Origin: Cephalotus follicularis
Taxonomy: Eukaryota; Streptophyta; Magnoliopsida; Oxalidales; Cephalotaceae
DNA: 64,000 bases
Direction: 5' to 3'
Assembly: GCA_001972305.1 (NCBI GenBank)
Contig: BDDD01002300.1
Coordinates: 1 to 64,000, forward strand
In this document: positions 3,529 through 44,257 of the stretch, one piece after another
Layout of the letters: every line of letters starts with the position of its first letter
How positions within the stretch are numbered: position 1 is the stretch's first letter
The notes under the pieces: model-generated
Told to the model about the DNA's origin: nothing
What the model saw: the letters and a program-made list of their open reading frames with translations, nothing else
Database searches by the model: none
Translations under genes and position numbers: made by a program

Positions 3529-3529
3529 N

Positions 3530-13527: not shown

Positions 13528-14244
13528 TGTAATAACCGCAAATTTTAATTAATGTATATTGTACCCAATGACGAATAAAATATGCATTGTATTGAGTTTT
13601 AATATCCAATTACTATATAAATTGTGGTTGTCGAATTGTTGGACTTGATTTAAAATGCAAATGTGGTGAAATACACTTAACAAACCAAAACCAGCCTCAA
13701 ACAGCCGACTGTCACAGGGTAACAGCTGACTGCTTTGATTCAAGAGTGACTGTCGACTGCCACAGGACAACAGTCGACTGGTCTGGCACAGACAGGCGTC
13801 TGTGCATGGCATGTAAGAACAGAGCAGTGGCAGCCTAAATGTGTCTTGCTTCTGAGATGTGTGCCAGCAGGTGTACAACATGCAAGAGTGGTGCCTTGCA
13901 TGTTCTCTATTCATTCTGCAAGACCTGCACACCTGCAAACCTGGAATCACAGCAGAAAAGTGAGAAAGAAATTGAAAGAAGAGATGCATGTGAGAGAGAG
14001 AATAGAAAATGTGGAAACAAGAGTAATGACTGAAACGGGATTGAATTTCCCTATAAACAGAGGCTGCATGAGTGATTAGAGAGTTAGAAACACTGGGGAT
14101 AGAGGAACTCTTACTGGAGAAATTCTTGGATGGAAGTTGAAGGATTGGAGTTCAAAGGAGGAGTTGAAGCTTTGATTTCTTCGTAAGCTCCAAGTTCTGT
14201 TATCATTGAAGTTATAGTTAAACAGTAGCATGTTCGTTCTACAA
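13528..14244 (+). repeat. C1: first part of a C-family gypsy-type solo LTR
   Basis: It starts TGTAATAACCGCAAATT and is collinear with C2 at 62792 onward. CAG(T/C)CGACTG motifs lie at 13700-13780. At about 14,244 it stops matching C and becomes D-family sequence in reverse. The rest of C1 is at 42421-44257, reversed. The combined length is about 2.5 kb with TGATG/TGATG target duplications (13523-13527 as CATCA; 42416-42420). ORFs at 13549-14079 are not genes. Confidence 0.88.
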
Positions 14245-15274
14245 TAGCATATTATGGCATCAATCCAGTAACAATATTATTCCAAGAATCATGCATTTTA
14301 TACAACCAAAATCATAGACCATGCATGAGCATCAAACTCGAAATTATAGTATGACTTTCCCCTACCTTTTGTTCCAAGTTAAGAACTGGAAGGTCCACCT
14401 CTTTTCGTTTCCAACAGGTCACAGCAGCCCCTCTAGGTCCGTCCCGTAGCCGCACTAGTGGCTCCAAGATCCAAGCTCCAAGCAATGGTGGAAACGTTTT
14501 CTTCTCCTTTACTTTCTATTTCTTACCCTCACTGTGTCTCTCTCAAGTGTATGGTTTTTCCCAAACAGTAGCAGTCGAAGGTAAGCACTCACCCTTGTTT
14601 CTTCTTCCTTTGTGCTTGTTTGCAGGTCACATGTGTCTAGGGTAAATCCCCATCTCCGCATGCAGCAGCTGGGTTCGTTTCCCAGTCTTTCGTGACAGAC
14701 AGTGCCCCATTCATTCTATCCATCCCTTGCATGCACACCTGTTCCATTCTTCTTGCATTTGTTGCATGTACACACACAAGCCACACTTGTCCACATAATC
14801 TCAGCCATGCAGGTTAGGGAGTAAGGTGCATGCCCACCACGTCCTAACCCATGCCCCAAGGTGTCTGAGAAAGGTTCTAAAAAGACTCCCCTTCGCACGT
14901 TGTTTGTCAGCAGAGTAACATGCATGGCATTCGAAGTTAAGGCATCGACGTCTTTCCAAAGACGTCGATGTCTTTCATCAATTTCACACAAGGACGTCGA
15001 CATCTTTGCCAGCATCGATGTGCATGTGCATGCAGCTACGTGCGCCCTTTTGCGTCAAAGGCGTTGACGTGATTCTAAAGGCGTCGACGTGTTTTCCCTA
15101 GAACAGCGTTGTTTTAGCCCTTTTTACATTCTTTTAGCATTTAACACAGCAATTCAACATAATAGAGATGGAAAAACATGACCAAATTCGGAAAATCCAT
15201 CCTGTTATTAATTTCACAATTAAAGGTACAAATACATTGTGAAATTATAATACATGAAAATCTCGGGCGTTACA
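14245..15274 (-). repeat. D1: first part of a D-family solo LTR, inverted
   Basis: The reverse complement starts TGTAACGCCCGAGATTTTC at 15274, as in D2 at 47732, and follows D2 to its TGGATTGATGCCAT block (14255-14270 in reverse). GACGTCGACGTC-type motifs occur at 14938-15085. The continuation of D1 is at 44258-46028. Flanking duplications are CGAAA (15275-15279 in reverse, 46029-46033). Confidence 0.88.
14945..15085 (-). repeat. GACGTCGAC motif cluster in D1
   Basis: Five to six variants of (A/G)(A/G)AGACGTCGACG or GGCGTCGACGTG within 140 bp. One, AAAGACGTCGATGTCTTTC, is nearly self-complementary. The same cluster is found twice in D2. Confidence 0.8.
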
Positions 15275-16737
15275 TTTCGGGTCCCGCCTGATTATTGAAA
15301 AAGTGACGCATGCTGCACAGATGCTCGCTTGGTGGTATACCTAGTTTTAACTAGTAAATATTAATTAGGCATTTGTGGTTTGTTTCTCTCTCCACAATTT
15401 GCCTTATTGATATATTAAGAGATTTATTGTTCAAGCATGATTTAATTTTATTAAATCAAATTAAAGAGAGAGTCTTTAATTTATAAAGGGAGAAATAATT
15501 TAATTAAAACTGTAAGAGCCATTTTTGATAAAACGAGATAGGAGAAATATAGGAGGGAGAGGGAGAGAGAGAGAGACTTAATTAACTTAAGTCAATTTTC
15601 AATCTCTCTCACACTCTCTCCCATTTGTTCTCTCCCAGCGCCTGGTACCTACAACGCGAGAGAGAGAAGCGCAGTGGGTGCGTTAGCGCGAGGGGAGCGA
15701 GTTTTGGCTGGTGGTGATGTCAGCGCTTAGCACCAGTGGCCGTTTGGTGGCGTCCGTCCTTCTCTGGTATGCCTCATTCTCTCTCTCTCCCTCTTTCTCC
15801 TTTTTTCTTCTCCCTGGTGACAATTGCTGTTTTTGTGCGCCGCTTGCTCTCGGCGTCTCTTCCGCCGCCGATAATCACTGTGGGTGGAGCCAATCAATGG
15901 CTCTATCCATTTTGATCTTTGTTTTGTGTTTCCCGTGCATTTTGCCAAGGGTTTGCGTCTGGTGAGTCAATTCTGGCGAGTTGATGCGTCGACCGTTGTG
16001 ACTTAGTGTTTCGTACCGAGTCAAGGCGAGTCTTTGTTACCTGTATGTTGATCGGGGTATTTTGTGGTTGGTGCTGGCTTGGCCGGCTTTGGTTTGGTCG
16101 AGCGAGTTGACTCAGTGAGTCCGACTCACTGATTCTCTATGAACATCCATTCCATGGCGAGTCACAACGAGTCCTCCCCTCCACGGTGAAGATCGGGTGT
16201 TTTGGAGAACAATCTTGACGCGACCGGTACATGTGGCATCGGATTGGAACTCGCTAAGTCCAATTCAGTGAGTCACCGCCACTGCCAATGGCGTCAGGGC
16301 GTTCTGGGGTGCTTATGGTCGTGTCTCCGCTACCAGTGGATAGACCGGTGCATCTGGAGTCCGTTGGTGTTGTGGTTGGTTGTTGGCGTGCTCGCCGGAC
16401 TCCAGGCAGTGGATCCCATGGCGGGCAGTGGGTCCGGTGATGGGATGTGATTACTGCAAGCGTGTAGCGGTAAAGTGGTGGAGCCTCCAACGTTTGTATG
16501 GTTGCTTCCCTTTTACATTTATTGTTTCCGATATGGTTTCGAATTATTTTTATGTGCATGCTTGATATATGTTTTAGTTTGATTGTTAATTAAACGGAGA
16601 TCCTAGGCTTATTTATTTGGTACTAAGATGTTAGTGTGAACCTTGACTTGCTGTCTTGGTGTTTTTAAAAAATTAAAATTATACACACTAGCGTCCTATG
16701 ACCAAATCGACCAGGAACCCTTGCCAGGTTTCTAACA
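15275..16737 (+). repeat. A: inner part of the 5' LTR of a long-LTR copia element
   Basis: Matches 22640-22934 plus 33658-34828 of the 3' LTR and ends ...TTTCTAACA just before the primer binding site. A purine/pyrimidine microsatellite (GA)n lies at 15560-15576. Its outer part was separated by the inversion and is now at 46029-47003 and 57547-57694 in reverse. The reassembled 5' LTR is about 2.57 kb, equal to the 3' LTR. The serine-rich ORF at 15711-15965 is not supported as a gene. Confidence 0.88.
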
Positions 16738-16739
16738 AG

Positions 16740-16751
16740 TGGTATCAGAGA
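16740..16751 (+). promoter_or_regulatory. A: primer binding site
   Basis: TGGTATCAGAGA, two bases after the LTR end, complementary to the 3' end of initiator tRNA-Met except for the last base. Confidence 0.9.
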
Positions 16752-18213
16752 CATCCGTTTTAATTTCAATTGGACTTTAATTTCGGTTTTGGTGACTATT
16801 TTGGGATAATTAAAGTATTTGAAATTCTAGTTTAGTTCCCATTCCATGGTTGTTTTATAAAATCAAATATTATTTTTCAGAAAATTAGGTTTTAAATAAT
16901 CTAGTGGGAGGTTTATTGGAATATCAGTGGACTTGTGGAATTATTTAGATTGGTCATCGAAAATTGAAAATACTTGTGTTTATTTAAAGTCTATAGTGGA
17001 TGTAGATTTTAAATGTCTCGTGCATGATGGCTGGTTATGGAACTGGACCTAGCTTTTGATTTCTTTTGTGGATGGTTTAATTTGCTTTATTAACTTGTGC
17101 TTTATTTGGTCTGTAATATGGTTGCCTGCGAGCACCATAAATTCCTTGTTTGTTTTATTCTCTCTCACTCCATTTTGTATTCTATTCTTTATTTTTGAAA
17201 TGTATTTGAGAAATTTCATTTTGTAAACAAAGAAGATACGAATCGCAAAAGAGCGAGAAGAGGAAGATCAAAGGATTTGCAAGACCAAGTGAAGGCCATG
17301 TATTCGTGGTGCATTTTGTTATAAAGTAGTTTTAAATAGTTAACCTAGGAGATCGACTGATCACATTGGCTCGTGTGATCACTCATAGATTTAGTCCCTG
17401 CCAAACCATATTTATTTCTAAGAAGGAAATAGGTTGCATGAGATGTATGTTTTCTTTTTGCAAACAATCCAAACACGTCAAGCATGCTAAGCCGTCCAAA
17501 TGGATTGGAAGATAATTAAAATTATCTAAAACGGCTTTTTGGTAATATTTAAAATTTGATGAGACCAAATTCCTCCAACTTGTTGAATAATAAGTCCATA
17601 AGCGGTGGGACATAAGGCTGTCCCATCGTTCGCCTTCAACGATTTGCGTTGAATGGTGTGGACATATTGGGGATAGCGCTGTACACTGCAGAGGTCTCTC
17701 GTATGACCATTTCTATTCAATTTCACTGTGAGGTGCATTGGAAGGAAAAAAAAATATGTCTTGGCACTCTGATAGGCCACAGCCTGTGGGTGTCAAAACG
17801 GGTTCATTTCCTTGAGGATTATGGGTTCAGACTTATACTGGGTTCATACTATTGGCATGGCCACAGCTGTGGATTGTATGGTCCGAGAGGCCGAAACTTG
17901 TATCGGATCTTACATTTCAAGGGCAAGAGGCCCTAATGCAAATATGATACTTTAAGCCTAACTATTCGCTATTGTGGTTTGTCATGCAACAGCTGAGACC
18001 ATGATAGGGTGGGATAGATTTTGATCCCAACTAGGAGGCAAGAGGCTTCCCGAGTTCCACATGGAGGTGTGGGATACAATTAGAATAGTGGGAGGAGCCA
18101 TAATTACAAAAGACTAAGGATTATGGCAATAACATAAATGGAATGATCTGTTAATATTCTCTCTCTTTCATCTTATAGGTTGCTAGTTTTCACATACTCG
18201 ATTAAATACTCAA
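16752..18213 (+). other. A: untranslated leader, no gene seen
   Basis: About 1.46 kb of A/T-rich DNA between the PBS and the gag start. No frame shows protein-family similarity. The short ORFs at 17383-17936 appear accidental. Confidence 0.6.
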
Positions 18214-18620
18214 ATGGCAGACAGCACGAACAAATCCAAACACATTTGGAACTCCTAACTTGAACATCCGATTTTCAATGAATGGAAATGCGTTTAGCGC
18301 AACATTCTCATGAGCATGAGAGGCGCTCATGTCATGACTGAGATAACCCCGAGCTAGTGAACGATGTATCCGACCATCATAAGGCTATAGGGGCTAAGTG
18401 GTGGGACGACGATTATCGAGCTCGTACCCTATCAATTATTGGCATGCTGCCACAATTCCACATGATCGGGTTACACACTCACAGGCTTTACGCGCCATGC
18501 TTACACAACTCGAGGAGTTGTATGGCACCCAGTCGAGGACTGTAAAGGTAGATTTTGACCAAGAGATTTTGAGATCGTCTGTGATGCCTCGATTTTCTAC
18601 TTGAATAATCTCAATGGGAG
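18214..18620 (+). pseudogene. A: copia gag remnant
   Basis: Probable start MADSTNKSK at 18214. Several frames then share copia Gag similarity: DVSDHHKAIGAKWWDDD and, in another frame, MLTQLEELYGTQSRTVKV, the typical 'LEELYG' end of the UBN2-type Gag domain. At least three frame changes are needed, so this is a dead gene. Gag would build the virus-like particle. Confidence 0.85.
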
Positions 18621-19660
18621 ATAGATCAAGTGAATCTAAGTTCCAAGGGTGAAAACCCAAGGAAGAGGCATCTAGTGCAAAGGGAATTTCATTCTAGAAA
18701 GGATCAAAAGTTTTATTTAGAGTTTGCCTACTTCCTTCGTGGAAAGCTAAGGCAATTGGAAGAGATATAATCTGTTCCTATAGTCCAAAACACGAAATAC
18801 CTTGTGTTTAGGTATTTTCATGTTTTATCTAGTTTACAATGTAAGTTCAACTTGAGTAGTTGGCTCAGGTTGTAAGACTAACATTTGTAACTAATTGCAG
18901 GTTGCTGAGAGATGCTAGACAGCTGAGAGAGTTGGTAAAGCTATGGACTAGCGCCATGGTGATGCATCGACGATTCACACCTATGTAGTTGGCGTTTATG
19001 AGTTGTATATATTTTGTAAATGGTTATGTAATAAAGATTTGATCTCTGTATATAAATAACATTGTAAGGGGTTTTGTTTCTATGTATATATGTATAAGAT
19101 GAGTTGAAAGCTCAATTTTTTTATATAAATTCATAGTCTTATACATTTCAATGTTCTAGTTAGTGCAAGAGGCACATGGACTGAAGAGATCTACGTCTTA
19201 TACAATTACCATTACATTATATTAACAATTCAAGGAACTACATAATAAAAGACTATGAGAAATGAGGTTTTCACTACTTCACCTTCATCGATGATTTTTC
19301 ACGGTTTAGGTATGTGTTTAATGTTGAAACACAAGTCTAAAATCCTACGAAAGAGTCATGGATTTATGACAAGGAGTAGTTAATGGTAAGGTCCATTATG
19401 ACTTTTTATAAATCTTCCAAATCTTATTATGGGGTTATGCACTGCAGTCAGAAGAGCATATCCTATTCCGGATTCCTTTGAAATTCATCCCTTCCATATC
19501 TAGTGAGGTATTTAAATGAAGGAAACCCAGCCTAAACCGTTTGAGGGTTAAAGACTGTCCAGCTTATGTAAGAAGGCAGAAACCTTCTAAGTTGTAGGCA
19601 CGATCGGGACGTTGTTGGTTTGTGGGATATCTTAAGAAGTGCTTAGGATATTATTTCTAA
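18621..19660 (+). other. A: decayed gag-pol middle section
   Basis: Position predicts protease and integrase, but I see no conserved motif in any frame. The A/T-rich stretch near 19000-19250 may be a deletion scar or small insertion. A deletion of most of integrase is likely because only ~1 kb separates gag from RT-proximal sequence. Confidence 0.5.
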
Positions 19661-19667
19661 CATCCCA

Positions 19668-21500
19668 GTGAACAAATATGGTTTTGTTTCATGTACTAAA
19701 AAATTCCTAAGAGAAGGAATACCTAATTGCAGAGAGTTTCCACCAGGCAGAAACCCACAGGATGATAAGGAACTAGAGGTTTATTCCTCTAAAGACATAA
19801 TTGGGAAAGGATCCCAATTTAAGATAGAGTCTCTGTTAGGCACTCCTCTAGCGAGGAGATCAGGCAAGGTTTTTGATAGCGCCTGAGAAATAGGGTTTTC
19901 TCATGAAGGCACTAACGAACCTAACGTCAACGAGATGATGAGCCTGTCAGCTTCCAGGGAGAAATGAAATGCACTGATTCCAGGACATGGTAAGAGACCA
20001 TGAAATCCGAAAAGGGCTCCATGTACACCTACCAAGTGAGGGACTTGGTATACGCACCCAAAGGCTTAAAATCCTATCGGATGCTAGTAGATCTTCAAGA
20101 GGAAGATTGGCATTAATGGAAAAGGTTAAAACCTTTAAAGCGCAATTGATCACAAAAGGGTATACACGTAAGACAATAGGTATGCATATACCGAGAACTT
20201 TCTCATCAGTTGCAATGCTTAAGTCCATTCGGATACTGCTCGCTAATTGTTGCTCATTGTGATAATGAGCTATGGTAAATGGATGTCAAGACAGTCTGCA
20301 AGAGTGACTATCTTGAAGAGGACATCTTTATGTCCCAAACCTGAGGGGTTTACATCCAAAGAGCATTAGCACAAGAGGTGCAATCTCCAAAGGTCTACGA
20401 CCTTAAGCAAGCATCCCATAGCTGAAATATCTATTTTGATTTTATCAAATATATGGATAAGCCTAATGTTTACCAGAAACAGGATAACCCAGAAATCACT
20501 TTCTTGGCACTGTATGTAGAAGACATACTACACATAGAGGATGTTGTAGGTATGTTGAAGTACAATTAAGCAAGAACTTCCCCGTAAAGGAATTGGGAAG
20601 GGCTTCCTACATTTTGAGAATGAAGATCTATAAGAGATAGATCAAGTAGATTGTTTGGACTTTACCAAAGTCAGTACATCAGCGGGTAGCTGAAATGGTA
20701 TGGAAGGAATTCCATATATGGCTTACTACAAATTAGCCAAGGAATTGACCTTTCCAAGAGGATGTCTTCTAAGAATTATGAGGAGAGGACACACGTGAGT
20801 AGGCAGTATTAAGCTTCGGCTGAAAGCTCCATCATGTATGCCATACTTTGTACTAGGACTGATGTCGATATGCCTAAGGGTCTGGCTAGTCAATTTTAGT
20901 CCAGTACCTGTAAGAGACATTTGGACATTGTCAAGAGGACATAATGCCTGTGAAAGACTCAGGATTATTTCTTGATACATGGAGAATATAGTGAATTGAG
21001 ACGTAAGAGTTAGGTTAACTCTATTTTCAATTGTGATCCGGATGATCAAAAATCCATTTCAGGTTATGTGTTGGTCCTAAATGGAAGTGCTGAGTGAATG
21101 GGAGGAGTTTGTGGTAGTCGAGGACTGCAGACTCCACCATGGCATAAGAGTATGTTGCAACCTGCGATATCGGTTATGGTAGCTGGTTCTGTAGCAGAAG
21201 TTCATTGTAGAACTTTATGTGGTTCCATCCATCGCTTGTCCAGTTGTGCATCATACGGACGACGATGGGGCTTTGCACAAACCAAGGAACCTGGGTCTTA
21301 TTACCGCCCAAACATATACAACAACGGTATCATTTGATCATGGAAATCATAGATGAATGTAATGTTTTGAAAGATATGTTATTGAGGAAACAGAGGAGAC
21401 ATCATGAGAGTAGATGTCACCACAGAGAGAGTTGTGTGGGAAGAGAACTTAGCAGACCCACTGACCAAGGCCATGAGCAGTGCTAGAGTGCGATATGCTT
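19668..21500 (+). pseudogene. A: copia reverse transcriptase and RNase H remnant
   Basis: Order of similarity: the RT entry MYTYQVRDLVYAPKG (19991-20060); MDVKT followed by LEEDIFMSQ (20280-20340); a YDLKQASHS block (20395-20425); ALYVEDIL (20510-20535), the copia YVDD catalytic box with D changed to E; then the RNase H block NCDPDDQKSISGYVLVLNG (21020-21080). The frame changes many times and stops are frequent. The purine tract and 3' LTR follow at 21520-21541. The ordering RT-RNase H-LTR identifies Ty1/copia; the lineage is not resolved. Confidence 0.88.
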
Positions 21501-21540
21501 AGGCTGTAGGTCTTCATGGCTGGAGGGCCAAGTGGGTGAT

Positions 21541-22934
21541 TGTTAGATTAGGGTGTCCTTGCAAGCCACGAGAAGGCTGCAAACATATGTTGTTGACATA
21601 TGACACACTCTTGAATCATACATTCTTAGATCCATTTGTGTTCTATTCTGCATATTTTATAAACATTGGCATCTGGCTATATGTATTATCCCAAACCGTC
21701 TCAACGGATCATTTGATCACCATGTCAATTGAATATACATATAGCGCCATGTCCTTAAAGGGTTGGCTCTCGTGCCTGAGAGGTTATGAGAATGAGATCC
21801 TTACTCTCTTGTGACAAAAGTTCCAAGTCATAGGTTCACTTTCTTAGGGAAATTGATGAACCGCAAAGACTTTCCGTGTTATGCTTGTCTGAATGGTAAA
21901 GGAGGATGGATCATCTCATAGCCATTTGGGTTTTACCCTAAAGCTGATACGGGGTGTGTACAGATGCATGACACTGAACCAACCCACCATAGGTTATCTA
22001 TTTGGAGAGTCAACACCTTTGTCAATAGAGTTCCTATTGTCGCGGTAGTGTTTAGTCAAAGGTGACCAGTTGATCATACGTGATTTACGTTGTGTCCTTA
22101 GACCTGAGCGGCTGCATTGTACAGTAATTGCTTGGCTTTGATTTTCGCCTTCCCCAGCACTAGCCACATGCTGACAAAAGGGATGTCTTTGGGCCTTATG
22201 GGAGTTGCATAGAGATGTATGGGCGAGTGCGTAAAATGGGATCGTCACACCCGTGTTGAGGGTTATAGGCTATATAACATCTATGACCGTTGCAGACTTA
22301 AAATTCCCGGCTGGGTACTGGGAGATTAGGAACAAAAGGTTTTCGGGGATATCTCCCATAGTCTCAGTGCATTCATAGAATTATAGTTATCGCGGTTTTA
22401 CCTAGGGGTGACATTAATCCAATCCCTAGTCCGCGGTCAGAGCCGATATGATGAAGGATATGCGGCACACAAACCAATGACAGTGATAAAGCACTAGGGA
22501 ACCGACTAACGAATGATAGACGTGGTACTTTGTGGTCCACGGATCCGGGGGTGATTAAAGATCACATCGGAGCTATTAGCTGGATAGTCGTACCAGAACT
22601 TAGGGATGTTTTGAGAAATTTATCATCGTACTGGAAATCCACCGGGCTTTCGAGTCCCGTATGATTATTGGAAAAGTGACGCATGCTGCATGGATGCTCG
22701 CTTGGTGGTAAATCTAGTTTTTAACTAGTATATATTAATTAAACATTTATGGTTTGTTTCTCTCTCCACAATTTGCCTTATTGATATATTAAGAGATTTA
22801 ATGTCAGAGCATTATTTAATTTTATTAATTCAAATTAAAGAGAGAGTCTTTAATTTATAAAGCGAGAAATAATTTAATTAAAAATGTAAGAGGCATTTTT
22901 GATAAAAGAGATAGGAGAAATATAACAGAGAGAG
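21541..22934 (+). repeat. A: 3' LTR, first part
   Basis: It starts TGTTAGATTAGGGTGTCC after the purine-rich GGAGGGCCAAGTGGGTGAT. It is interrupted at 22934 by element B, with GAGAG on both sides, and continues at 33658. Its mirror image in the 5' LTR is at 57694-57547 and 47003-46029. Confidence 0.92.
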
Positions 22935-25029
22935 TGTAACGCCCGGGGTTTTCATTATGGTGTAATATTGTATTCCCAATGTAATTTACGCTTGAATTAA
23001 TGAGAACTATGTTTTTCCCTCTTTTGTGAGTTGAAAGTTGCAAGAAAAGTGTGTTGGTGTGTTTTCTGTATAGGGGGCAGCCGACTGCCACAGGGAGGCA
23101 GCCAACTGGACCCCTTGTGGAGGGACAGTAGCCAGCTGCTGTGAGGGAACAGCCGACTGGTGTGGGTGTCGGCAGAAACAATCGACTGCCAAGTCAAGGT
23201 AGTCGACTGCCAGCGCCAGACAGCCCACGTGTTGTCAGGTTTTAAGTGACAAAAAGGGGGTGTTGGCTTTATTTGGGGAGATGGCAGAGAGAGGGGTCGG
23301 GTTCCTCTCTTAAAAACACAAGCTTTCCTCTCCAAATCTCCATCTTTCTCAGTGAATTCAAGAGTGTTTGGGAGTAGAGAGAATGGAGTGAAAGTGTGTG
23401 TGTTGAGGATCTAAGGAGCTTCGTGTTGAACCGTGGACTTGGAGGCTTGGACAGTGGAGGAACCGGACCAATGGGGGTTGCTGAACGGGTTGAGGAGTGC
23501 AAAAGCCTCGGATTTGGACTTAAAGAGGTGGATTGCAGCTCCTAACTTGGAGTTCTAAGGTAGGGGGAAAGTCGTTTTTGCACTTAATTTCAACTGTAAA
23601 TGTTTTCCATGAAACGAAATGCATGTTTATGTTGTATTGTGAGCCTGGAAAGTGTTGTTGCATAAGTGTACTGTTTTGGGTTGAGTTGGGTGTGTGTTGT
23701 GGCTTGTGTAGCTGCTGTTTTTCTGCATTTTCTGTATAATCCAGCCGACTGTTGAGTGTGAGCAGCCGATTGTCGAGAGTGACAGCCGACTGTTTGCCGT
23801 GGGTAGCCGACTGCCAGGGTTAGGCAGCCGACTGCTTTAAGGGGGACAGCCGACTGTCAGTGGGGAACAACTGACTTCAGGGCCTGTTTTGCCTTGTGAA
23901 CGTGTGTGTGTATCGTGTAATGTGATATTTTGCTTCGTGAGCTTTATAAACTGCCTTGGACAATGAAATGACTGATTGTGAACTACTTTTTGGAAGTGCA
24001 TTGTTGATTATGAAAATCATTACTTTATACGAAAACGTATGTTTTGAGGAAATATATTTTTTCGAACCGTGAAAATGACTTCCAAAACACCGTGAACCGA
24101 GTTTTGTGATATTGTGAACCGAGAACCGTGACATCGTGAAAATGAGTTTGCTTTCAAGTATTTTGTTTTATAAATTTACTTGGAAAACTGTTTTGAGCAT
24201 TGAGATGACTGTGATTGTGATTGAGTTGACTGTGGTTTGCTGATTGTGACCGTACTAGTTGAGTGGCGGAGATGCCAGCGATGACTAGTGGTCGGGTTGA
24301 CTCAGGGGCCAGGAGTTGGCTGGGTGACTCATTGTACCGTGACCTGCTTCGTGCCGTCCCGAGTCGGGGCCGATGACAGGAGTACGACGTCGGGGCCAGG
24401 AGTTGGCGACGCTCTTCGTTCCCACCGTGAACCGAGTATTGTGTAGTCCTTTGGACTTGTTTGAGACCATGAATTGTGACATTGTGATACTGTGACATCG
24501 TGGTTGGCATATATACGTGTGTGTATGTATGTATGCATCGAGATATAGTATGTACTGCATCATGTTGCATTCATGCTTGGTTTTTGTTGATCTTATGTTG
24601 CTTTTATGACTTTGGCCGATTGAGGACAAAGGCTAACCCCCTACTGTTACAGATTGAAGCAGCGTTTTGGATATCGCCGGGCAAGGCTATGCCGGGATGT
24701 GATGTGACAGAGTTTATTTTGCTTTGATGTTTGGTAAAGCAGTGTACTTAAAACATGATGTACCTTGGATTATTGTACTAATGTTTTACTGTTGTTAATC
24801 GACTTTTTGATCACGCTCCGTTGTGTGCTTTTTAACAATGCTTTTCAGTTAGTGTATTCGGGAATCATGTAGTATGGGATGCATGGTTTCGTTTGCTTTC
24901 AGCTTATAGTTAAATGCTTCCGCAAGATTGATGTTTAATCAAAAGTTTTAAGTTTTACCTTTTTCTGTATAAGCTGGATGTTTGTTAAATTGTCATGTTG
25001 TATGTTGTTAATGCAAGTGGGGTGTGACA
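22935..25029 (+). repeat. B: 5' LTR
   Basis: TGTAACGCCCGGGG...GGGTGTGACA, 2095 bp. CAG(T/C)CGACTG-type motifs cluster at 23078-23215 and 23742-23880. A block GAGGACAAAGGCTAACCCCC at 24622, shared with LTRs C and D, precedes a TTACAG. Relative to the 3' LTR it lacks a 174-bp stretch of the second motif cluster. Small ORFs on both strands are LTR shadows. Confidence 0.95.
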
Positions 25030-25033
25030 ACAG

Positions 25034-25045
25034 TGGTATCAGAGC
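25034..25045 (+). promoter_or_regulatory. B: primer binding site
   Basis: TGGTATCAGAGC, the standard initiator tRNA-Met site, four bases after the LTR end. Confidence 0.95.
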
Positions 25046-25137
25046 ATATATCCATTTATATGCTTAGCTTGGATACTATCCTTGGCAATTAACATGTTTC
25101 CTCAAGAGGACTAACAACATCTTTCTTATCGGAACCT

Positions 25138-29747: not shown

Positions 29748-29763
29748 TACTGTTTTAATTTCG

Positions 29764-32759: not shown

Positions 32760-33648
32760 AGTTTGCTTTCAAGTATTTTGTTTTATAAATTTACTTGGAA
32801 AACTGTTTGAGCATTGATGACTGTGATTGTGATTGAATTGACTGTGGTTTGCTGATTGTGATTTTGATTATGACCGTACTAGTTGCGTGGCAGAGATGCC
32901 AGTGATGACTAGTGGTCGGGTTGACTCAGCGGCCAGGAGTTGGCTGGGTGACTCATTGTACCGTGACCTGCTTCGTGCCGTCCGGAGTCGGGGCCGATGA
33001 CAGGAGTACGACGTCAGGGCCAAGAGTTGGCGACGCTCTTCGTACCCACCGTGAACCGTGAACCGAGTATTGTGTAGTCCTTTTGATTTTTTTGAGACCA
33101 TGAATTGTGACATTGTGATACTGTGACATCGTGCTTGGCATATATTTATATATGTATGCATCGAGATATAGTATGTACCGCATCATGTTGCATTCATGCT
33201 TGGTTTTTGTTGATCTTATGTTGCTTTTATGACTTTGGCCGAGTGAGGACAAAGGCTAACCCCCTACTGTTACAGATTGAAGCAGCGTTTTGGATATCGC
33301 CGGGCAAGGCTATGCCGGGATGTGATGTGATAGAGTTTATTTTGCTTTAATGTTTTGTAAAGCAGTGTACTTAAAACATGATGTACCTTGGATTATTGTA
33401 CTAATGTTTTATTGTTGTTAATCGACTTTTGGATCACGCTCCGTTGTGGGCTTTTTAACAATGCTTTTCAGTTAGTGTATTCGGGAATCATGTAGTATGG
33501 GATGCATGGTTCCGTTTGCTTTCAGCTTATAGTTAAATGCTTCCGAAAGATTGATGTTTAATCAAAAGTTTTAAGCTTTACCATTTTCTGTATAAGCTGG
33601 ATGTTTGTTAAATTGCCATGTTGTATATTGTTAATGCAAGCAGGGTGT

Positions 33649-33652
<4 letters not shown>

Positions 33653-33684
<32 letters not shown>
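33653..33684. repeat. (GA)16 microsatellite in A's 3' LTR
   Basis: 32 bases of pure GA immediately after B. It is shorter and impure in A's 5' LTR (15555-15576). B's GAGAG duplication lies in it. Confidence 0.95.
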
Positions 33685-33688
<4 letters not shown>

Positions 33689-34828
33689 ATTAACTTAAGT
33701 CAATTTTTAATCTCTCTCACACTCTCTCCCATTTGTCCTCTCCCAGTGCCTAGTGGGCGCAACGCGAGAGAAAGAAACGTCGTGGGTGCGGTAGTGTGTG
33801 GGGAGCGCGTTTCAGACGGTGGTGATGCCGGCCCTTAGCATCGGTGGCTATTTTGTGGCGTTCGTCCTTCTTTGGTATGCCTCCTCCTCCTCTCTCTCTC
33901 CCTCTTTCTCCCCTTTTCTGCTCCCTGGCGGCAGTTGCCCTCTCTGTGCGACGCTTGCTCCCGGTGTCTCTTCCGCCGCCGATGATCACTGTGGGTGGAG
34001 CCAATCAATGGCTCTATCCATTTTGATCTTTGTTTGGCATTTCCCGTGCGTTTTGGCTGGGGTTTCCATATGGTGAGTCAACTCTGGCGAGTTGACGTGT
34101 CGAACGCTGTGACTTGAAGTTTCGCGCCGAGTCAAGGCGAGTCTTGGTTGCCTATGTGTTGATCGGGGTATTTTGTGGTTGGTGTTGGCTTGGCAGGCTC
34201 TGGTTTGGTTGAGCAAGTCGACTCAACGAGTCTGTCTCGCCAATTCGCTGTGAACGGCTGTTCCATGGTGAGTCACTGTGAGTCCTCCCCTCCATGGAGA
34301 AGATCGGGTGTTTTGGAGACCGATCTTGGCGCGGCTGGTCCATGGGGCATCGGATTGGAACTCGCTGAGTCCAACTCAGTGAGTCACCGCCGCTGCCAGC
34401 CGCGTTAGGGCGTTCCGGGGTGCTTCTGGCCGTGTCTCCACCACCAGTGGATAGATCGGTGCATCTGGAGTCCGTTGGCATGGTGGCTGGTCACTGGAGT
34501 GCTCGCTGGATTCCAGGCAGTGGGTCCGGTGACGGGATGTGACTGTTGCAAGCGTGTAGCGCAAAGTGGTGGAGCCTCCAACGTCGGTATGGTTGCTTCC
34601 CTTTTATATTTATTGTTTCCGATGTGGTTTCGAATTATTTTTATGTGCATGCTTGATATATGTTTTAGTTAGATTGGTAATTAAACGGAGATCCTAGGCT
34701 TATTTATTTGGTACTAAGATGTTAGTGTGAACCTTGACTTGCTGTATTGGTGTTTTTGAAAAATTAAAATTATACACACTAGCGTCCTATGACCAAATCG
34801 ATCGGGAACCCTGGCCAGGTTTCCAACA
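33658..34828 (+). repeat. A: 3' LTR, second part
   Basis: Collinear with 15580-16737 of the 5' LTR and ends ...GGTTTCCAACA at 34828. The next five bases, AACCA (minus-strand TGGTT), match the five bases TGGTT at 57695-57699 after the other end of A. Confidence 0.93.
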
Positions 34829-36405
34829 AACCAATCCTTCTCCAATGATCATTGATGCTTAAGTAAGTTGTTAACATGCATTAGAAACAAAATATAACAA
34901 GAGAGTACGAGTAAAACTCACTCAAAGAAGACATTCCTTCCTTCAAGTCCCTTTTTTGATTCAAGATTAGCTTCCAAGTGTAGGATAGCCTCTAAGGTGT
35001 TACACACAAAGTGATCTCCTTCCTTCCTTCAAGTTCTAAGCCAAAGATAAGATGAGAACTCTTTCTTCTTTTCCTTTTTATTCAGGCCGAAACTCTCCTT
35101 GAGAAGAGACAAGTGTCTTCCTTTTAACTTATGCTAGTAAGTGTTACAAAAAGAAGATAAGGTTAAGGAAATATCTAACTTTCTTAACCTTTAAGAAATG
35201 GACCAAGTCAATTGACCTAGTCATAGCCGAATTTCCCTCTAAATAAATCATCTCATGGTTTATTTAGTGTGTAACCCTAATACACACCTTGTTATTGGAG
35301 ATCGACGCTTGTATTGTGTGTGACCCTATAGGTTCATTATTACGCTGGCCGTAGAATTAAATTGCGAATCCTACAATCAATCAATTAGACATTTTTCATC
35401 ACATGAAAATCATTCTAATTGGCATTCTCAATTTAAATTCCTCTATCAATCTGTCTCAGGCATTCTTCTGATCAGCATCGATATCTAGTAATGCATACTG
35501 ACCCCCAGGTAATATGAATTTACCTTGAACCATAAAATGCAGGTACATGCATGTTTATTCCTTCCATCGTACTTGCTCTAATCAAACCTAGGGCATGGAT
35601 TATGTCAAACCCTAATAGATTAATTAATAGGTACCATGATATAATGTCATTGGCCCCATCATATAAGAAGTTCCCCTCAAATATGAATCGGTGATATCTA
35701 AGCACTTCCTACATATCACTGCTCTTACCCTAGCCAGGGATTTCTGCCAATGACCAATCAATATGAGCATCTATCCCTTTTACTGGGAGCGAAGGATTCA
35801 ATCTTGCTCACTCACCTATCACTGCCATAAAGCTGCCATACCCAATTAATGCCTTTATACTCTCCGTGGTTAGGAGACATAAGTAAACATTATTAAATCA
35901 TAGCATTTTATGCATAGGATACAAGTAGTGGCTCATGTCTAAGGACCACTGTTGCACTGCTACTGTCAGGAATGTATGTTTGACGTACAATAAAAGTTCC
36001 ATATAGGTATTCCATCTTGCGAGTCAGCTTCAGTGAACTCAATCACCCACATGTGTTGCCCTTGTCTCCACAAGATGACTTATGAGATCAGTCACCATCT
36101 AAACGAGCTGACATACTATGTGCTAGTCTTATTGGATTAAGCATGCCCCGAGTACTTAATCCTATGACCACGAAGATTTAAGAATAAAGTTTACTGAGGT
36201 TCAAATTCTCACTTCTTGATCTCATCAAGAATTTCAGTTCCTCCAACTCTAATATTAGGACATTCATTTATAAATACATACATTAGTACGTTAAATGAAC
36301 TCATTGCCATTGATAATGAAATATACATTTTTATTGAATATCATTAAAGATAAGTTTAAATATTACAAGATATGGCAACTGCTTGCAGGACTTATCTCCA
36401 ATACA
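34829..36405 (-). repeat. F2: copia LTR of the F family, interrupted by A
   Basis: The minus strand starts TGTATTGGAGATAAGTCC at 36405 and matches F1 and F3 through the GACCCCCAGGTAATATGAA and TGTGTGACCCTATAGG blocks. A was inserted close to its end. After the inversion is undone the last ~80 bases are 57695-57779, ending ...AATCCAACA. No PBS or PPT is beside it, so it is probably a solo LTR. Its own target duplication could not be seen. Confidence 0.78.
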
Positions 36406-37525
36406 GGTATATACAGATATATGCATGGCATGTGAAACACATGAATGCCTATTGTGGACAACGTTAGTATATCAACCGTCCTTAAGCGGTGACATACTTA
36501 GCAAATCCTAATCATAGAAAAGACCATAGGTCTACAGACACTCCATAAGTCAAACCATAACCATCCATGGGTACAAAAAATCCATAAAGTCTTAGTACCA
36601 CTCTGGCCCTCTGGCTTGAGATAGTACTGCCACTGACTACCTACCTTTTTGGGGTCATAGCCGAGTGGGGTCGAGATAACACTGACCACATCAACTGTAT
36701 CATAATGCTAGTCCCTTATAGGTCCTAGCTCATAACCGATATTTATTCAGTAATTCCATCCACAATGCAGTGATCCACATAGGTCTACCCCTAAAGGGAT
36801 GTTTTCCCTCCATATGATGTGGTCTAACACCCATAACCTTCATGACGAAAATGAAGATTATGAATGTGTTATCTTATCAAGTCTCAAACAATAACTAACC
36901 ATTAATCCTAACCATATAAAGCCTGTAACCCATGACCGTAAATCCATTTAAATGATACAGACCTAATCATAAAGAATCACGTAGGATCCATCCGGCAAAA
37001 ACTATTTTTAAAACCATTTTTCATTACAATTTTCTTGGTCCCTATCGGAGTTAATAAAATAATAGAGATGATGACCAACTAGGATATTCGCATCCAAACA
37101 TCCCAATTGAACCGACCCAACCATTTATTGAAACCCTCTTTAAAATCCATTTGAAGATTGATTTGAAGATCAATTGGTATAAAGAAGGGTTCATATAGGT
37201 TGCATGGCTTTAGGGAGGCTTCCTATGGAACCCCATTTGAAGATAAAAGGGTTGGCAGTTGAAAAGAGGTTGAAATCATGTTGTTTTATGTAAAAACAGG
37301 GTACAAGACGCTGACTGTCTAGCCAAAGCGCCGATAGTTAATGCTACAAAGCGTCAACAGTCAAGGCGAAGCGTCGACGATTAGTGCGTTACAGCCAAAG
37401 CGTTGATCGCTTAATCAAAGAGTCGATAATTTTAAGGTTTAAGTAAAGCATCGCAAGTTTTCACAAAGCGTCGATGGTTTAAGATCATATCCAAAAGCGT
37501 CGACAGTTTGCACAAAAGCGTCAAC
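36406..37525. other. Unclassified segment with GCGTCGAC-type motif array
   Basis: 37310-37525 carries about ten AAAGCGTCGAC(A/G)-like motifs (AAAGCG(T/C)CGA variants), similar in style to D-family LTR arrays. 36490-36730 has a minus-strand open stretch (63 codons, containing YDPKKVGSQWQYYLKPEGQ) that looks protein-like but matches no family I recognise. In the un-inverted order this segment is joined through F2/A to 57780-58271. Confidence 0.4.
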
Positions 37526-38528
37526 TGTAATACCCCGTAGCATAATTTGGAGTATAATTATTAAGTTTGCATACTATTTATAAAATTCATACTTTTGGTG
37601 TCAGACCCAACCAGGCGTAGCACAGCAGACCAGACCAAGTGGAGCAGAGCAGACTAGGCTAGAGCGTAGCAGACCTGGTCTAGGAAGAGCAGACCTGGTC
37701 TAGGTTGGGCAGACCTGGTTAAGAAGACCTAGGAGTAGACCTGGTCTGGGAGGTGCAGACCTACTCAATGCCTCATTGAGCAGACTTCACATATGCGGAG
37801 CAGACTTGATGTATGTAGAGAGAGATCTAGGAGTCAACTAGGAAGCCTGTGGGATTGTAGGGATGCTTTGGAGTGGATTGACATAACCGACGGTAAAGTC
37901 ATGTACGATAAAGGATTTAAGCAGTCTTAAGGCCCAAGGCCCAAAAATTAGGCCCAATTACCTCCATAAGTCCCGAATTATCTGGAATTGTCTCTATATA
38001 TCTCAAAGTTTCTAGATTATTCCTCAGTAATGAATTTATAAGTTTTATAAAGAGAAAACGAACGGCATTCTCATTTTCTTACTTGGCCAAAGCATTTATC
38101 TCTTGCGAGCTCTCATTTTCTCCTCCATTTCTCCAAGAACTTCTTAAGGAATATAAGTGTGGAAGTGACTCATCTTTCACCCTTCTAACATAATATTATA
38201 AGTTCCCTAACTTTCTGGCAATAGAAGTTGAGATTTTATTAAGATCTTTATGCCATATAATTGATGGTGAAGTGATAAATTATATCCTCGTGAGGAATGG
38301 TAATTAGACTAAGAGTTGAGCATATTATCATAAATTGACTTCCATGATTATTCCTTGAAAAATATGGTTCCATGAAGAAGTGATAAAGTTGATAGTTCTA
38401 TGGTTTTAAGGAATGATAAATGGACGTTAGTAAACTTGTGAGATCATCACTTTTATGTTAAGAACATTTCGGTCTGTTGAGGGTTTAAGGAAAGTTGATA
38501 TTTATATTGAATTAAGGATTGAAGCCAT
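37526..38528 (+). repeat. G: outer part of the 5' LTR (now inverted)
   Basis: It starts TGTAATACCCCGTAGC at 37526 and runs into T at 38529, with ATG duplication (CAT at 38526-38528). A degenerate GAGCAGACCTGGTCTAGG-type repeat lies at 37615-37800. A TATA-like CTCTATATATCTC lies near 37990. Orientation and composition fit the missing start of the G LTR; assignment rests on the T insertion and the inversion. Confidence 0.7.
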
Positions 38529-38939
38529 CACTACTAAAAAACTGGGCAACGACGAGGGCAAATGGCAAGGGCATGGCGCGGACACATTGATACCCTCGCC
38601 GTTGAGTCGTTTTTTATTTTTATTTTTATTTTTATAAAGGCATGGCGAGGGCACTGTTGCCCTCGCTATACCCTCGCCATTTTTAAAATTACATGGCGAG
38701 GGCAATAATTGCCCTCGCCATGCCCTCGCCGTATTCTACCATAACACTACTCGGCCCTTTCTTTTTTTTTCCCCTATCTTTTTTTTTCCTCTCCCTTTTT
38801 ACCCTAATACTCACTGCCACTCGCCTTGCCGCCACTTTCTCCCCCTCTCTCACAGCCGCCGGTCTCCTTCTTTCCACTGCCGGTCTCCTTCTCAGGTATT
38901 AATTTCTTTCTCCCTCTCTCTCACTATCGGTTTGTAATT

Positions 38940-39385
38940 TTTTTGTATATATATAATTTATATATATAGTATATAGTATGTATAATTTAGTTATATATAT
39001 AATAGTTTATATATATATATATATATATTAGTTAGTATGTTTAATTTATTAGTAGTTTATATATATGTATGTGTAATTTATTAGTATATAATTTAGTTAG
39101 TATGTTAGTATATACGTATGTATATATATAATAGTTAGTAGTATATATGTATGTATAATTTAGTAGTATATATGTATAGTTAGTAGTATATGTGTATGTA
39201 TAATTTAGTTAGTATATAAGTATGTATAATTTCGTTAGTATGTATATATACAGTATATATGTATGTATAATTTAGTTATATATATAACAATATAGCGTAT
39301 ATATGTATGTATAATTTAGTTAGTATGTATATATATAATAGTTAGTAATATATATGTATATATGTATAATTTAGTTAGTATGTTA
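38940..39385. repeat. T: A/T-rich minisatellite in the transposase leader
   Basis: A degenerate tandem array of units close to GTATATATGTATGTATAATT followed by TAGTTAGTAT, about 30-60 bp apart with (TA)n runs. It lies between the pyrimidine-rich promoter-like stretch (38755-38930) and the first transposase exon. Confidence 0.85.
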
Positions 39386-39854
39386 GTATTATGTTTAGAT
39401 TTATTGTAGAGTTCAATTACCTATTATGATTAAAGTCGAGAGAAACCTTAGATTCACATTCATGATTCGTTTAATAGGAGTGAATCATGAATTGTCCAGT
39501 GCGGACAGTTTCACATACGTACGTCCGCCGTAGGATATGTCGTTATTTTGTGTACATAGTTTTCTTCAAGAAAGTTTCGGTTACACTCCTTAAACATGTT
39601 CCTATGATGGATAATTAAACAGATTAATTCAGTTTCATACGTGAATTTGAGGAACCGTGGGGAAATGCTACCAAAATTTTCTCAGAGTCAACTATGCACG
39701 TGGGATAACGATATCAGTGGAGGTACATAGTCGGGAATGGGATAGGGCCATACCTTTTAGAGTTAGGTGGTGAGATCCAGTTCAGATAATGCATTTTGAG
39801 AAAAGAATACTTGAATCTAACAATCTTCTACCCTACTTGTAGAAAAAAATTTCT

Positions 39855-42420
39855 ATGGACAGGAGTTGGATGAGTAGGCAGGTTGTCCAGGGGTTACTAA
39901 CGGAGGAATCTAATAGGGGTGTGCTTGCGTTCTTAGATTTTGCATTTTCAAACGAAGATTTTGTCTGGAACAGTACGATAAAATGTCCTTGTAGCCGTTG
40001 CAAGTTAAGGGCGTTTGGAACTCGATCTGTAGTGCGGTTACATTTGTTGAAGAACGGTTTCACCACCCCCATTACACGTTGTGGGATCAACATGAGGAAA
40101 GGAGGGAATGTTGTCGGGATGCAGTAGAGTAGCCAGACCCCTCGGATCCGAGCAATCCTTTTGTTGATCTCGTAATGGATGCTGGGGAGTTCGAGTTTGA
40201 TACTCGTGAACATGACGAGACGGTCGATGAACTTTCGAATCCCAATGCAAAGAAGTTCTATGACCTGCTTAAGGATGCGAATGAACCGTTGTGGAATGGG
40301 TATAAAAACACACCAAGCTGTCTATGATGATGCGACTCATGAATGTCAAGTCCAAGTATGGGATTCCTAACAAAGGGGCCAAGGAAATTCTTCAGATCGT
40401 TAAGAGCGGAATGCTTGAGGATGAGAAGTTTCCAGAGTCTTATAACAAGCTGAAACAAATTATGAAGACATTGGGATTAGGATACAAAAAGATAGATGCA
40501 TGTGTCAATGATTGCATGTTGTATTACGGGGATCAACACAAGTGTGCTACAGAGTGTCCAACATATAATCATCCTAGATTCAAACCTAGCGGAGGCGGAA
40601 AGAGAAAGAAACATGTACCTTAAAAGGTTTTGCCTCACTTTCCAGTGGCACCAAGACTTTAGAGGTTGTTTCAATCAGACAAAACATCTGCTGATATGAG
40701 GTGCATAGTAAGAAGATGAAGGATAACGATGGTGACGAAGAGGGAATGGTACACCCGGTTGACGGTGAAGATTGGAAGCACTTTGATATTACTTTTCAAT
40801 CTTTTGCTGCAGAGGTTGGCAATGTTAGAATAGGAATAGCAACGAACGAGTTTTGTCCTTTTGGGGTTAGTAGTAGTGTTTACTCTTGCTGACCTGTTTT
40901 TGTTTTCTAATACAATCTTCCACATTGGTTGTGAATGAAGAAGCCATTCATGTTCTTATCCTTGATTATACCTGGACCAAAAAGCCCAGGGAAAGATATT
41001 GATTTGTTTCTACGTCCACTCGTTGATGAGTTGAAGTTGTTGTGGGAAGCTGGAGTTGAAACCTATGATGCATCACGTAAGAAGAACTTTCAGATGAGGG
41101 CAGCTTTAATATGGATGATTAGTGACTTTCCTTCCTATGGAATGCTATCAGGGTGGAGTAGTCATGGTCATTTTGCATGCCCCTACTGCATGGGTCAGAC
41201 CAAGGGTTTCAGATTGAATCATAGTCGAAAATGTTCGTGGTTTGACTGTCATCGTCAATTGTTGCCCATAGACCACCATTTAGAAGAGACAATAAAAAAT
41301 TCTTGAAGGGTCGACGGGTGACCGAGGTGGGTGTGGAGAGGTTATTAGGGGAAGAGGTAGAGGATCAACTCCCTGAGTTGAATGAAGTTGTGTTTGGAAA
41401 AGGTGTACCAACTAGTAAGATTCCTGGGTTTGGGAGAGTACAGAATTTGACTAAGCGAAGTATCTTTTTTGAACTTCCTTATTGGAGTAAAGTACTAGTG
41501 AGACACATGTTGGACGTCATGCACATCGAGAAGAATGTGTTTGAAAATATAATCAACACGGTCATGAATGTGAAGGGAAAATCCAAGGACCACGTACACG
41601 CTCTACTTGATCTGAAAGAGTTGAAAATAAGACCTGAACTACATGCAGAAGTAGTGGATGGGCGGTTTATATTGCCACCAGCAAAATATTCACTGAACAG
41701 TGAACAGGTCAAACAAGTTTGTGAATGGATGACAAAGATCAGGTTTTTGGATGGATATGCCTCAAACATATCTCAGTGTGTGAATGTTTCAGAGTGTAAG
41801 GTTAAGGGATTGAAGAGCCATGATTTCCATGTCTTCATGCAGAGGCTTCTTCCGATTGCATTTTCTGAGTTCCTGCCGAGAAATATCATGGAGGTGTTGG
41901 CCGAGGTCAGTGATTTTTTTCCGAATATATGCTCAACATCGAACAGTGCTCCAAGATGGACTTACTCCAGAGTAACATTGTGCTAACAATTTACAAAATG
42001 GAGAAGATATTTCCTCCATCATTTTTTGATTCGATGGAACATCTTCTCGTCCACCTAGCTTACGAAGCAAAAGTATGTGGGCCAGTTCAGAATACATGGA
42101 TGTATCCCATTGAGAGGTACAGTTACTCATTGTTTCTCTTTCTGAAATTGTTCATCTCTTTGTCATGCATTCTAATTACATATTTAATTACAGAGAGCTG
42201 TTTGATCTAAAAAATATGATCAAGAACAAAGCTCGTGAGGAATGGTCGATTGCCGAGGAATAAATCATTCGCGAGTTGACAACGTTTTGTTCGTATTATT
42301 TCGAACCTGATGTCCCAGGGAGGCTGAATAGACCTAAGAGAAACTAGGATGGGGGCACCGTTGTAAGTAACATCATTCGCGAGTTGACAACGTTTTGTTC
42401 GTATTATTTTGAACCTGATG
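39855..42420 (+). pseudogene. T: TNP2-type CACTA transposase, N-terminal to DUF4218 part
   Basis: Order: Transpos_assoc domain (39855-40100, MDRSWMSRQV... CPCSRCKLRAFGTR); linker; TNP2 core (40324-41286) with MNVKSKYGIPNKGAKEIL, ACVNDCMLYYGDQHK, MVHPVDGEDWKHFD, FVLLGL/CPFG with the expected acidic residue changed (TNEFCPFG), FLSLIIPGPKSPGKDIDLFLRPL, GWSSHGHFACPYCM; then LDVMHIEKNVFENI (41505-41550), and DUF4218 (41790-42116; SHDFHVFMQRLLPIAF, SMEHLLVHLAYEAKVCGPVQ). A GT..AG intron fits 42117-42193. Frameshifts near 40130, 40620-40930 and 41290 and stops at 42262 and 42345 make it a pseudogene. The enzyme would cut the element ends. Confidence 0.92.
42264..42420 (+). repeat. T: 108-bp tandem duplication inside the transposase gene
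   Basis: The unit begins ATCATTCGCGAGTTGACAAC at 42264 and again at 42372. The second unit is cut by C1 at 42420 and resumes at 13527 on the minus strand with TGATGTCCCAACGAGG. The two units differ at several bases (for example CCTAAG versus CCTGAG). Confidence 0.92.
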
Positions 42421-44257
42421 TGTGACACCCCGCCTTCCGTTAGAGACAACATATGTGGTGATATCAGTTATAAATAATAATCCATCATTCAACATTTAAA
42501 CAATTTCATTAAACCATAAGCGGAAGCATTACAATTGCCGGATTATAAAGTTATCCGCACGCAGCCCATACTACGTGCTAATACAATACTAACAAAATCC
42601 TTTGACATATAGGAAAAGTAAAACAACAACAATGGAGTGTGAACGTTCATTTTAATACAAAACATAAAGAATAACAACCTTAACAAAATAGAAGCTCTCC
42701 AAAAGCTTCAGCAGCACTTCCCCGAACGCCTTCACTTAATCTGAAATTGTAGGGGGTTAGCCGTTGTCCTCACTTGGCTAACTAGGAATAAAGCATGATA
42801 AAGAATATATAAATGTAACATGCATGTCAGTTATCTGAAATAACATATATATAAGTATTCAAATATATATATATGCAATCATGCCAAGTGGCCATAGACA
42901 ATACAACTCAGGAATACCGCACAAGGGTAAAATCAATCAATACAGTGGTTTGGGCGTCACATGTCGCTAACTCCTAGCACCAACTGTGCACCACCTAACT
43001 ATCACCCTACACTCTGAAGATGATAGATCAGGTCAATTTTGCCGGCATTTAGCGAGCGAGTAACAATCAGGATCTGTATTGCAGATAAATGTGGTGGATG
43101 CTTTAGCCAACTCCTGGCACATAGGACCACCCCGTAGCCAGTGATGTCTCCTATCACTCGACTAACGGCAATAACATAGACAAACAATTCAATCAATTCA
43201 GTAGAAATTTTACATATCTATAATATGCAATATCAAGTTGTTTCATTTTGAAACATATAACAGTTCGATAATCGTACCTCTCGTTGGAGGAAACGATATT
43301 CAGTACAGTAGTTGTGCCTCTCAAATGAGGAAAATTCGATAATCATTAGACAATAAGTTTTTGTTTTGAAAACGATAAGGAAATCCATATGTGTGCTTAT
43401 AGCACAAGTTGGTTCAATCATTAATATTAAGTGTAACCATAGTATTTATGAACACTTAACAACTATACATTATGTATAACAGCATCACTAAACAGCAGCG
43501 GAACAATCAATTCAAGGGTTCAACAAGATGTTAGCATACCTTAGTCATTTTTGCACAACTTCTCACGATGAGTGCATAAGTTGTTTACTTTCTGTAATAT
43601 AACTACCTAAGGCCAGGATTGTCTGTTACAATCATCCCATGTGGAGGCCAGGGTAATTACACACAATTATAAGCCTAACAGCAGCTAATTTTTGTATTTT
43701 GTCACCTAACAGTCGGCTGTTCATAAGAATAGCCGGCTGTTTTAATTAGGTATTCGACTGTTTGTCCTTAACAGTCGACTGGTTACATTGAGTAGTCGAC
43801 TGTTGGGATTAACAGTCGACTATTCTTGTCCAGAATCGCCAGACAGCAGTTTAAAATAACAGAGCATGCATGCTCACAATCCAATTTCAATCAATCCATA
43901 ACATGCAATCATACAGAAAATATTCAGGCACGATATACATATCATATCTTCTAAAACATGTCAATACCCCTACCTCAAATGCTATCCCGGAATCAAATTG
44001 AGTCGATTCCTCTCTTTGAGTTCCAAGTTCTTCACCCAACTCAATCTTCCAAAATCCAGCAATTAATCTATATGGTTGCATGTTTACAGGTTTAGATACT
44101 AAACCGGTAAGTTTAACTAGTTATCTAATCATGATAACAAGAAAATCAGAACCAGAAGCTTACAATCAATTTTCTAAGTTCCATTCCATTTCCTAACTAA
44201 ATCTAAATTTCAATCTCCAATTTCGTGGTTTATTTGGTGCTCATGTTTAATCAGTAG
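42421..44257 (-). repeat. C1: remaining part of the C-family solo LTR, inverted
   Basis: Minus strand ends ...GGCGGGGTGTCACA at 42421. The part at 43870-44030 in reverse is collinear with 63840-63990 of C2 (shared GAGGTAGGGGTA(A/T)TGACATG), proving the family. CAGTCGACTG/CAGCCGGCTG motifs lie at 43706-43835. The GAGGACAACGGCTAACCCCC block is at 42750-42770 in reverse. ORFs here are not genes. Confidence 0.88.

Follow-up and report, generated by a model that had tools for sequence, protein, structure and literature searches.

It was asked whether two repeats in this locus, each of which starts as one LTR family and ends as the reverse of another, mark the ends of a block of chromosome that has been turned around, and what kind of breakage and repair could have produced them. 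The window (the whole stretch of DNA analysed, 64,000 nucleotides) comprises bases 1-64000 of a contig of 263,908 bp (C2300), and the assembly to which it belongs (1.58 Gb in 9746 contigs) was searched for related copies. Its nested LTR elements and CACTA transposon suggest that the host is a plant. To judge from the sequence, the block at 14245-44257 is very probably a real chromosomal inversion which arose from two double-strand breaks repaired by classical non-homologous end joining. The features on which this reading draws are listed in Table 1.

Table 1. Positions of the inverted block, its joints and the transposable elements that they interrupt.
Feature	Position	Strand	Remarks
CACTA, part outside block	9813..13527	+	terminal repeat at 9813; flank ATG 9810-9812
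Transposase_24	11132-11470	-	CACTA, outside block; weak, below Pfam cut-off
DUF4216	12659-12943	-	CACTA, outside block
C target duplication, copy 1	13523..13527	+	CATCA
C solo LTR (Ty3/gypsy), left part	13528..14244	+	
Joint 1	14244..14245		C-left (...GTTCTACAA) then reversed D-left (TAGCATATT...); no microhomology
Inverted block	14245..44257	-	about 30.0 kb; contains 10.7-kb nested element B
D solo LTR (Ty3/gypsy), left part	14245..15274	-	inside block
D target duplication, copy 1	15275..15279	-	TTTCG on +
A first LTR, piece inside block	15275..16737	+	followed by primer site TGGTATCAGAGAC
A second LTR	21541..34828	+	gypsy element B nested at 22935-33652; AACCA duplication at 34829-34833
Empty site of D	22590..22705	-	equivalent segment in the other LTR of A, one CGAAA
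CACTA, part carried into block	38529..42420	-	terminal repeat at 38529; flank CAT 38526-38528
Transposase_21 (tnp2)	40935-41303	+	CACTA, inside block; E 2.3e-44
DUF4218	41914-42207	+	CACTA, inside block
Empty site of C	42261..42372	-	C-free tandem copy of CACTA target, one CATCA
C target duplication, copy 2	42416..42420	-	TGATG on +
C solo LTR, right part	42421..44257	-	inside block
Joint 2	44257..44258		reversed C-right (...AATCAGTAG) then D-right (TAGATATG...); no microhomology
D solo LTR, right part	44258..46028	+	
D target duplication, copy 2	46029..46033	+	CGAAA
A first LTR, piece outside block	46029..47003	-	resumes at 57547-57694 past nested element E
A first LTR, start	57547..57694	-	target duplication TGGTT at 57695-57699

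Reversal of one block restores the ancestral order

The repeat at 13528-15274 was found to consist of the left part of LTR C followed by that of LTR D in reverse, and that at 42421-46028 of the reversed right part of C followed by the right part of D. As they stand, neither is bounded by a target duplication, the flanks being CATCA/TTTCG and TGATG/CGAAA respectively. Flipping the block gave C flanked by CATCA/CATCA, D by CGAAA/CGAAA, a CACTA element by ATG/ATG and the copia-like element A by AACCA/AACCA (TGGTT on the other strand). Random k-mers of the window matched one another at empirical frequencies of 0.00126 (5-mers) and 0.0175 (3-mers), so that the four duplications would occur together by chance with a probability of ~3.5e-11, an arithmetic figure which assumes independence and is uncorrected for the choice of flip. 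With nested inserts removed, the LTRs of flipped A measured 2576 and 2565 bp. The preliminary description of this DNA, which had reported both chimeric repeats at these coordinates, the lack of a duplication at either, four duplications repaired by a flip and improbable as coincidences, and A LTRs of about 2.57 kb, was borne out on all of these points.

Both C and D are solo LTRs, each a single LTR with a 5-bp duplication from a family that also occurs in the form LTR-internal-LTR. One relative of C (L009) has a complete LTR, gag, protease and RT domains and an incomplete second LTR; in a relative of D (L011), Ty3/gypsy domains are enclosed by two whole LTRs that are 95% alike. Flipped C and D were 2553 and 2802 bp long with the joint as first placed, and by arithmetic are 2554 and 2801 bp with the joint corrected below.

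Two sites in the window correspond to the targets of C and D before insertion. The empty site of C aligned to the joined C flanks at 105/113 identical positions with one gap and one CATCA, and that of D (within the reverse complement of 22590-22705) aligned to the joined D flanks at 99/113 positions, ungapped and with one CGAAA. Since each empty site matches one flank inside the block and one outside it, the flanks adjoined before C and D were inserted, and as sequence evidence for the ancestral order the two empty sites are stronger support than the short duplications. A tandem duplication of ~110 bp within the CACTA element (42261-42420) preserved the C-free copy of the C target site. When the outer flank (57700-58300; 2201 first-look candidates) was searched for a second allele, one of the 40 scored matches covered the query and this was the window itself, so that the ancestral order is read from the elements and not seen directly.

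A single flip restored the target duplications, the flanks of the empty sites, a split LTR and a split tnp2 gene, leaving one reversed block with two joints and a recoverable ancestral order, as in a chromosomal inversion.

The CACTA element and copia-like element A

As observed, the CACTA ends at 9813 and 38529 lie in the same orientation, and after the flip they form a 14/14 inverted terminal repeat with ATG/ATG. All end pairs with at least 9/14 matching positions and 0.5-30 kb apart were compared, giving 236 pairs in the observed order and 244 in the flipped order. The pair 9813/38529 was the only perfect one (14/14) among the 244, while the best of the 236 reached 12/14 and had no duplication. 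A 3-bp duplication accompanied 3/236 observed and 2/244 flipped pairs, the perfect pair included, and the other such pairs had weaker ends. The flip also brought four domains together on a single strand, as Transposase_21, DUF4218, [C], DUF4216 and Transposase_24, which agrees with the order in which CACTA domains are listed in the excerpted text of PMC8978399 (Transposase_21, DUF4218, DUF4216, Transposase_24). The element can thus be placed among CACTA (En/Spm) transposons by its 14/14 ends, its ATG/ATG duplication and its Transposase_21, DUF4218 and DUF4216 domains, although the ends and the duplication match only after the flip. Within it, the fragment at 41246-41986 had no Pfam match even at E 10, while neighbouring frames did match, and a long AT-rich tandem array lies near one end (38933-39403).

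Because a CACTA element with matching ends spans one breakpoint, aberrant transposition using alternative ends was considered as a source of the inversion. The breaks, however, lie inside C and D, with the C break 4.4 kb and 5.7 kb (in the present sequence) from the ends at 9813 and 38529, and these ends retain their target duplication; such an origin is accordingly rated as exceedingly improbable.

In element A the match to RVT_2 is weak (E 0.0014) and falls below the Pfam cut-off; its primer site, TGGTATCAGAGAC, is typical of copia elements. Gypsy element B may have entered A before or after the inversion. Element E (47004-57546) lies in the first LTR of A with the target duplication TAATA; its LTRs differ by K2P 0.08 and contain a 37-bp tandem repeat whose copy number differs between them. 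Inside an LTR of E is a relative of D (47732-51640), LTR-like alone, with the target duplication TTTAT and a tandemly duplicated segment of 1164 bp (copies 98% alike). Immediately beyond A, the 245 bp at 57780-58024 are a common repeat.

Elsewhere in the window, an open frame of 395 aa (679-1866) matched Pfam Transposase_32 (E 1.8e-16), which stands for a putative plant transposon protein. A dispersed repeat is present in three diverged copies (71-81%), at 3796-4846, 35310-36339 and 58360-59392; two of them share a strand, the third is on the opposite one, and one copy lies inside the inverted block. A relative of C, diverged and directly oriented, occupies 62792-64000 and continues into L012:455-1355. 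A tRNA scan (bacterial settings) and an Rfam search gave no match.

Placement of the joints and repair footprint

Family copies were used to place the joints to the base. With bases 14000-14500 as query, matches to C stopped at or before 14244 (query base 245), while matches to D began at 14245 (query base 246), with one at 14244 (query base 245). With bases 44000-44510, the other matches either stopped at or before 44257 (C) or began at 44258 (D). The breaks therefore fall inside the two solo LTRs, as had been claimed, between 14244 and 14245 and between 44257 and 44258; of the block first given as 14,244-44,257 the right edge stands and the left edge was one base off.

Among the 40 matches scored in the assembly for each query (from 7774 first-look candidates for joint 1 and 7383 for joint 2), 0/39 others spanned joint 1 and 0/39 others spanned joint 2, and so the naturally occurring C/reversed-D chimera that had been named as a counter-indication was absent from these matches. 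C and D family copies ran across the break positions in loci L002-L008. These searches bear on the alternative that no inversion took place and that chimeric C/D retroelements were inserted ready-made, in keeping with which both chimeras start with TG and finish with CA. As neither has a target duplication, the two carry complementary halves of C and D, the empty sites join flanks which are now far apart, and the scored matches contain no other chimera, this alternative is scarcely credible.

The sequence across each break was compared in the 12 C copies and 13 D copies that a motif scan detected in the fetched loci, the window's own loci being left out. C copies read T(A/T)TAA-C(C/G)-CTACTG, with two bases between TAA and CTACTG in 12/12 (CC in 11/12 and CG in 1/12), and both of these bases are missing here. 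D copies read ATATGC-TA-GATA (GCTAGATA) in 13/13, and the TA of D is retained at both joints as a 2-bp duplication. Set against the family copies, the joints thus share 0 bases, with 2 bp lost in C and TA doubled in D. A diverged relative of D in the window aligns across the joint yet reads ATGTTAGATATG at the break, and the in-window relative of C is too diverged at that position for a judgement to be made. Base 14242, three bases from joint 1, is C here and T in 12/12 C copies, which may be a small filler or repair trace or a plain substitution.

Two candidate microhomologies were rejected. The motif CAGTAG (14223 and 44252), suggested earlier as a possible site of joining, is C sequence in both copies, and its first copy ends 16 bp before joint 1. 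A 2-bp AA match at joint 1 was dropped because D begins at 14245, D copies reading GCTA and then GATA at this point.

Similarity between C and D at the breaks was assessed with the relatives L009 and L011, and did not rise above that of shuffled sequence, 277/300 direct and 114/300 reverse shuffles being as good; in blastn the only similarity between these relatives was a 35-bp stretch far from the breaks. In the ancestral order C and D have the same orientation, in agreement with the preliminary description, so that exchange between them would delete and not invert. For homologous recombination between inverted repeats, the two breaks would have to lie in similar repeats that face opposite ways, while C and D are unlike at the breaks and ancestrally co-oriented. 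Although both breaks lie in LTRs of one superfamily, and although a ~40-kb inversion in Oryza minuta was ascribed to recombination between two MuLEs in the excerpts of PMC3890553, ectopic homologous recombination is contradicted for C and D, and its probability, whether between these or other inverted repeats, is judged to be minimal.

Replicative template switching or microhomology-mediated joining would likewise give an inversion with small base loss, and filler could account for the single deviating base at 14242. It is nevertheless very unlikely, given that microhomology is absent at both joints, that no templated insert was seen and that the loss is near nil. Classical end joining leaves no extended homology, little or no microhomology and a small gain or loss, and the joints have 0 bp shared, 2 lost and 2 doubled; the earlier proposal of two breaks and end joining is in line with this, and the footprint is that of classical end joining.

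No hairpin or cruciform tendency was detected at the breaks, the predicted DNA folding of the break windows being ordinary at widths of 40-120. Windows as stable as the break window numbered 246/508 (C) and 293/539 (D) at width 40, 243/504 and 253/535 at width 60, 313/500 and 331/531 at width 80, and 91/492 and 390/523 at width 120.

It is also conceivable, if unlikely, that the assembly is at fault and that a 30-kb contig terminating in two high-copy LTRs was put in the wrong way round. The candidate numbers given above indicate that each joint falls in a high-copy repeat, where a flipped contig is likely to arise, and a 25-N gap (31364-31388, in the second LTR region of element B) falls inside the block. 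At the joints themselves, however, there are 0 N, and the joined ends have no common overlap or repeat to mislead an assembler; with a flipped contig one would further expect losses or repetitions of arbitrary length, or none at all, as opposed to the 2 bp lost and 2 bp doubled here. The 25-N gap is a placeholder, and the contig is therefore a scaffold with imperfections; a single N also occurs at 3529.

Order of events and proposed mechanism

The nesting of the elements suggests that A was inserted first and then D in an LTR of A, that the CACTA element was followed by C inside it, that solo LTRs formed, and that the inversion came last. The LTR pair of A has a K2P divergence of 0.122, or about 4.7 million years at 1.3e-8, the rate used for rice in the text available from PMC3890553, which may not suit the host. 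Since A was in place before D, and D before the inversion, this age bounds the inversion from above only. C and D, at K2P 0.15 and 0.17 from the relatives compared, gave no close date.

An inversion by end joining would postdate all four insertions (A, D, the CACTA element and C) as well as the reduction of C and D to solo LTRs. The break in D could have been a two-nucleotide stagger at C^TAG with both ends filled in, and that in C would have lost two nucleotides; crosswise ligation of the broken ends would then have inverted the block. Going by the coordinates, much of the region is LTR DNA, so that breaks in LTRs would need no special cause. The breaks lie about one third into the LTR (734/2579 bases in L009 and 968/2732 in L011). 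Were this a site of transcription start or protein binding, breaks could occur preferentially in solo LTRs, and the inversions of repeat-rich plant genomes might be mined from a single genome, in the absence of a relative, by way of swapped target duplications and in-genome empty sites; this extension is unlikely to hold.

Comparison with known inversions

A small inversion embedded in repeats is difficult to detect, since its joints both fall in high-copy DNA. In this locus the nested elements serve as a record: the ancestral order is fixed from a single genome by the two empty sites and the four target duplications, and family copies place the joints to the base, which gives a clean natural end-joining footprint for comparison with those induced by Cas9. 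Applied to whole genomes, this way of reading could reveal inversions hidden in repeats or flag contigs that have been flipped. The inversion is an individual instance of an already known type of event, unusually well resolved. In the portions available from PMC2773423 (maize megabase inversions) and PMC4902974 (sugarcane haplotype inversions), no comparable joint was found.

The ~40-kb inversion in the CC subgenome of O. minuta, in which target duplications and terminal repeats were exchanged between two MuLEs and homologous recombination was inferred (PMC3890553, in part), resembles the present one in its size, in its plant host and in having been recognised via target duplications swapped between two transposable elements. 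It differs in that the breaks there lie in two alike elements, whereas the LTRs here are unlike at the breaks, co-oriented and joined without homology.

For Drosophila inversions formed by non-homologous end joining, cut-and-paste and staggered-break types are distinguished, and overhangs of 58 and 534 nt are discussed, in the passages at hand from PMC7584159. In those inversions, as here, the ancestral ends need no repeats and one end bears a duplication made by the event; the duplication here, however, is 2 bp (TA) as against 58- and 534-nt overhangs, and the other end has lost 2 bp. The present inversion would thus combine one end of each Drosophila type, at a tiny scale.

In Arabidopsis, Cas9-induced inversions had 10/14 junctions without loss, and the others included a deletion of 2 bp and an insertion of 1 bp (excerpts of PMC7474074); the present footprint is similar in size. 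The heritable Cas9-induced reversion of hk4S, as presented there, is similar in that two breaks were joined crosswise, mostly without loss and with changes of 1-2 bp elsewhere; that reversion was induced and spans 1.1 Mb, whereas the inversion described here is natural and spans 30 kb.
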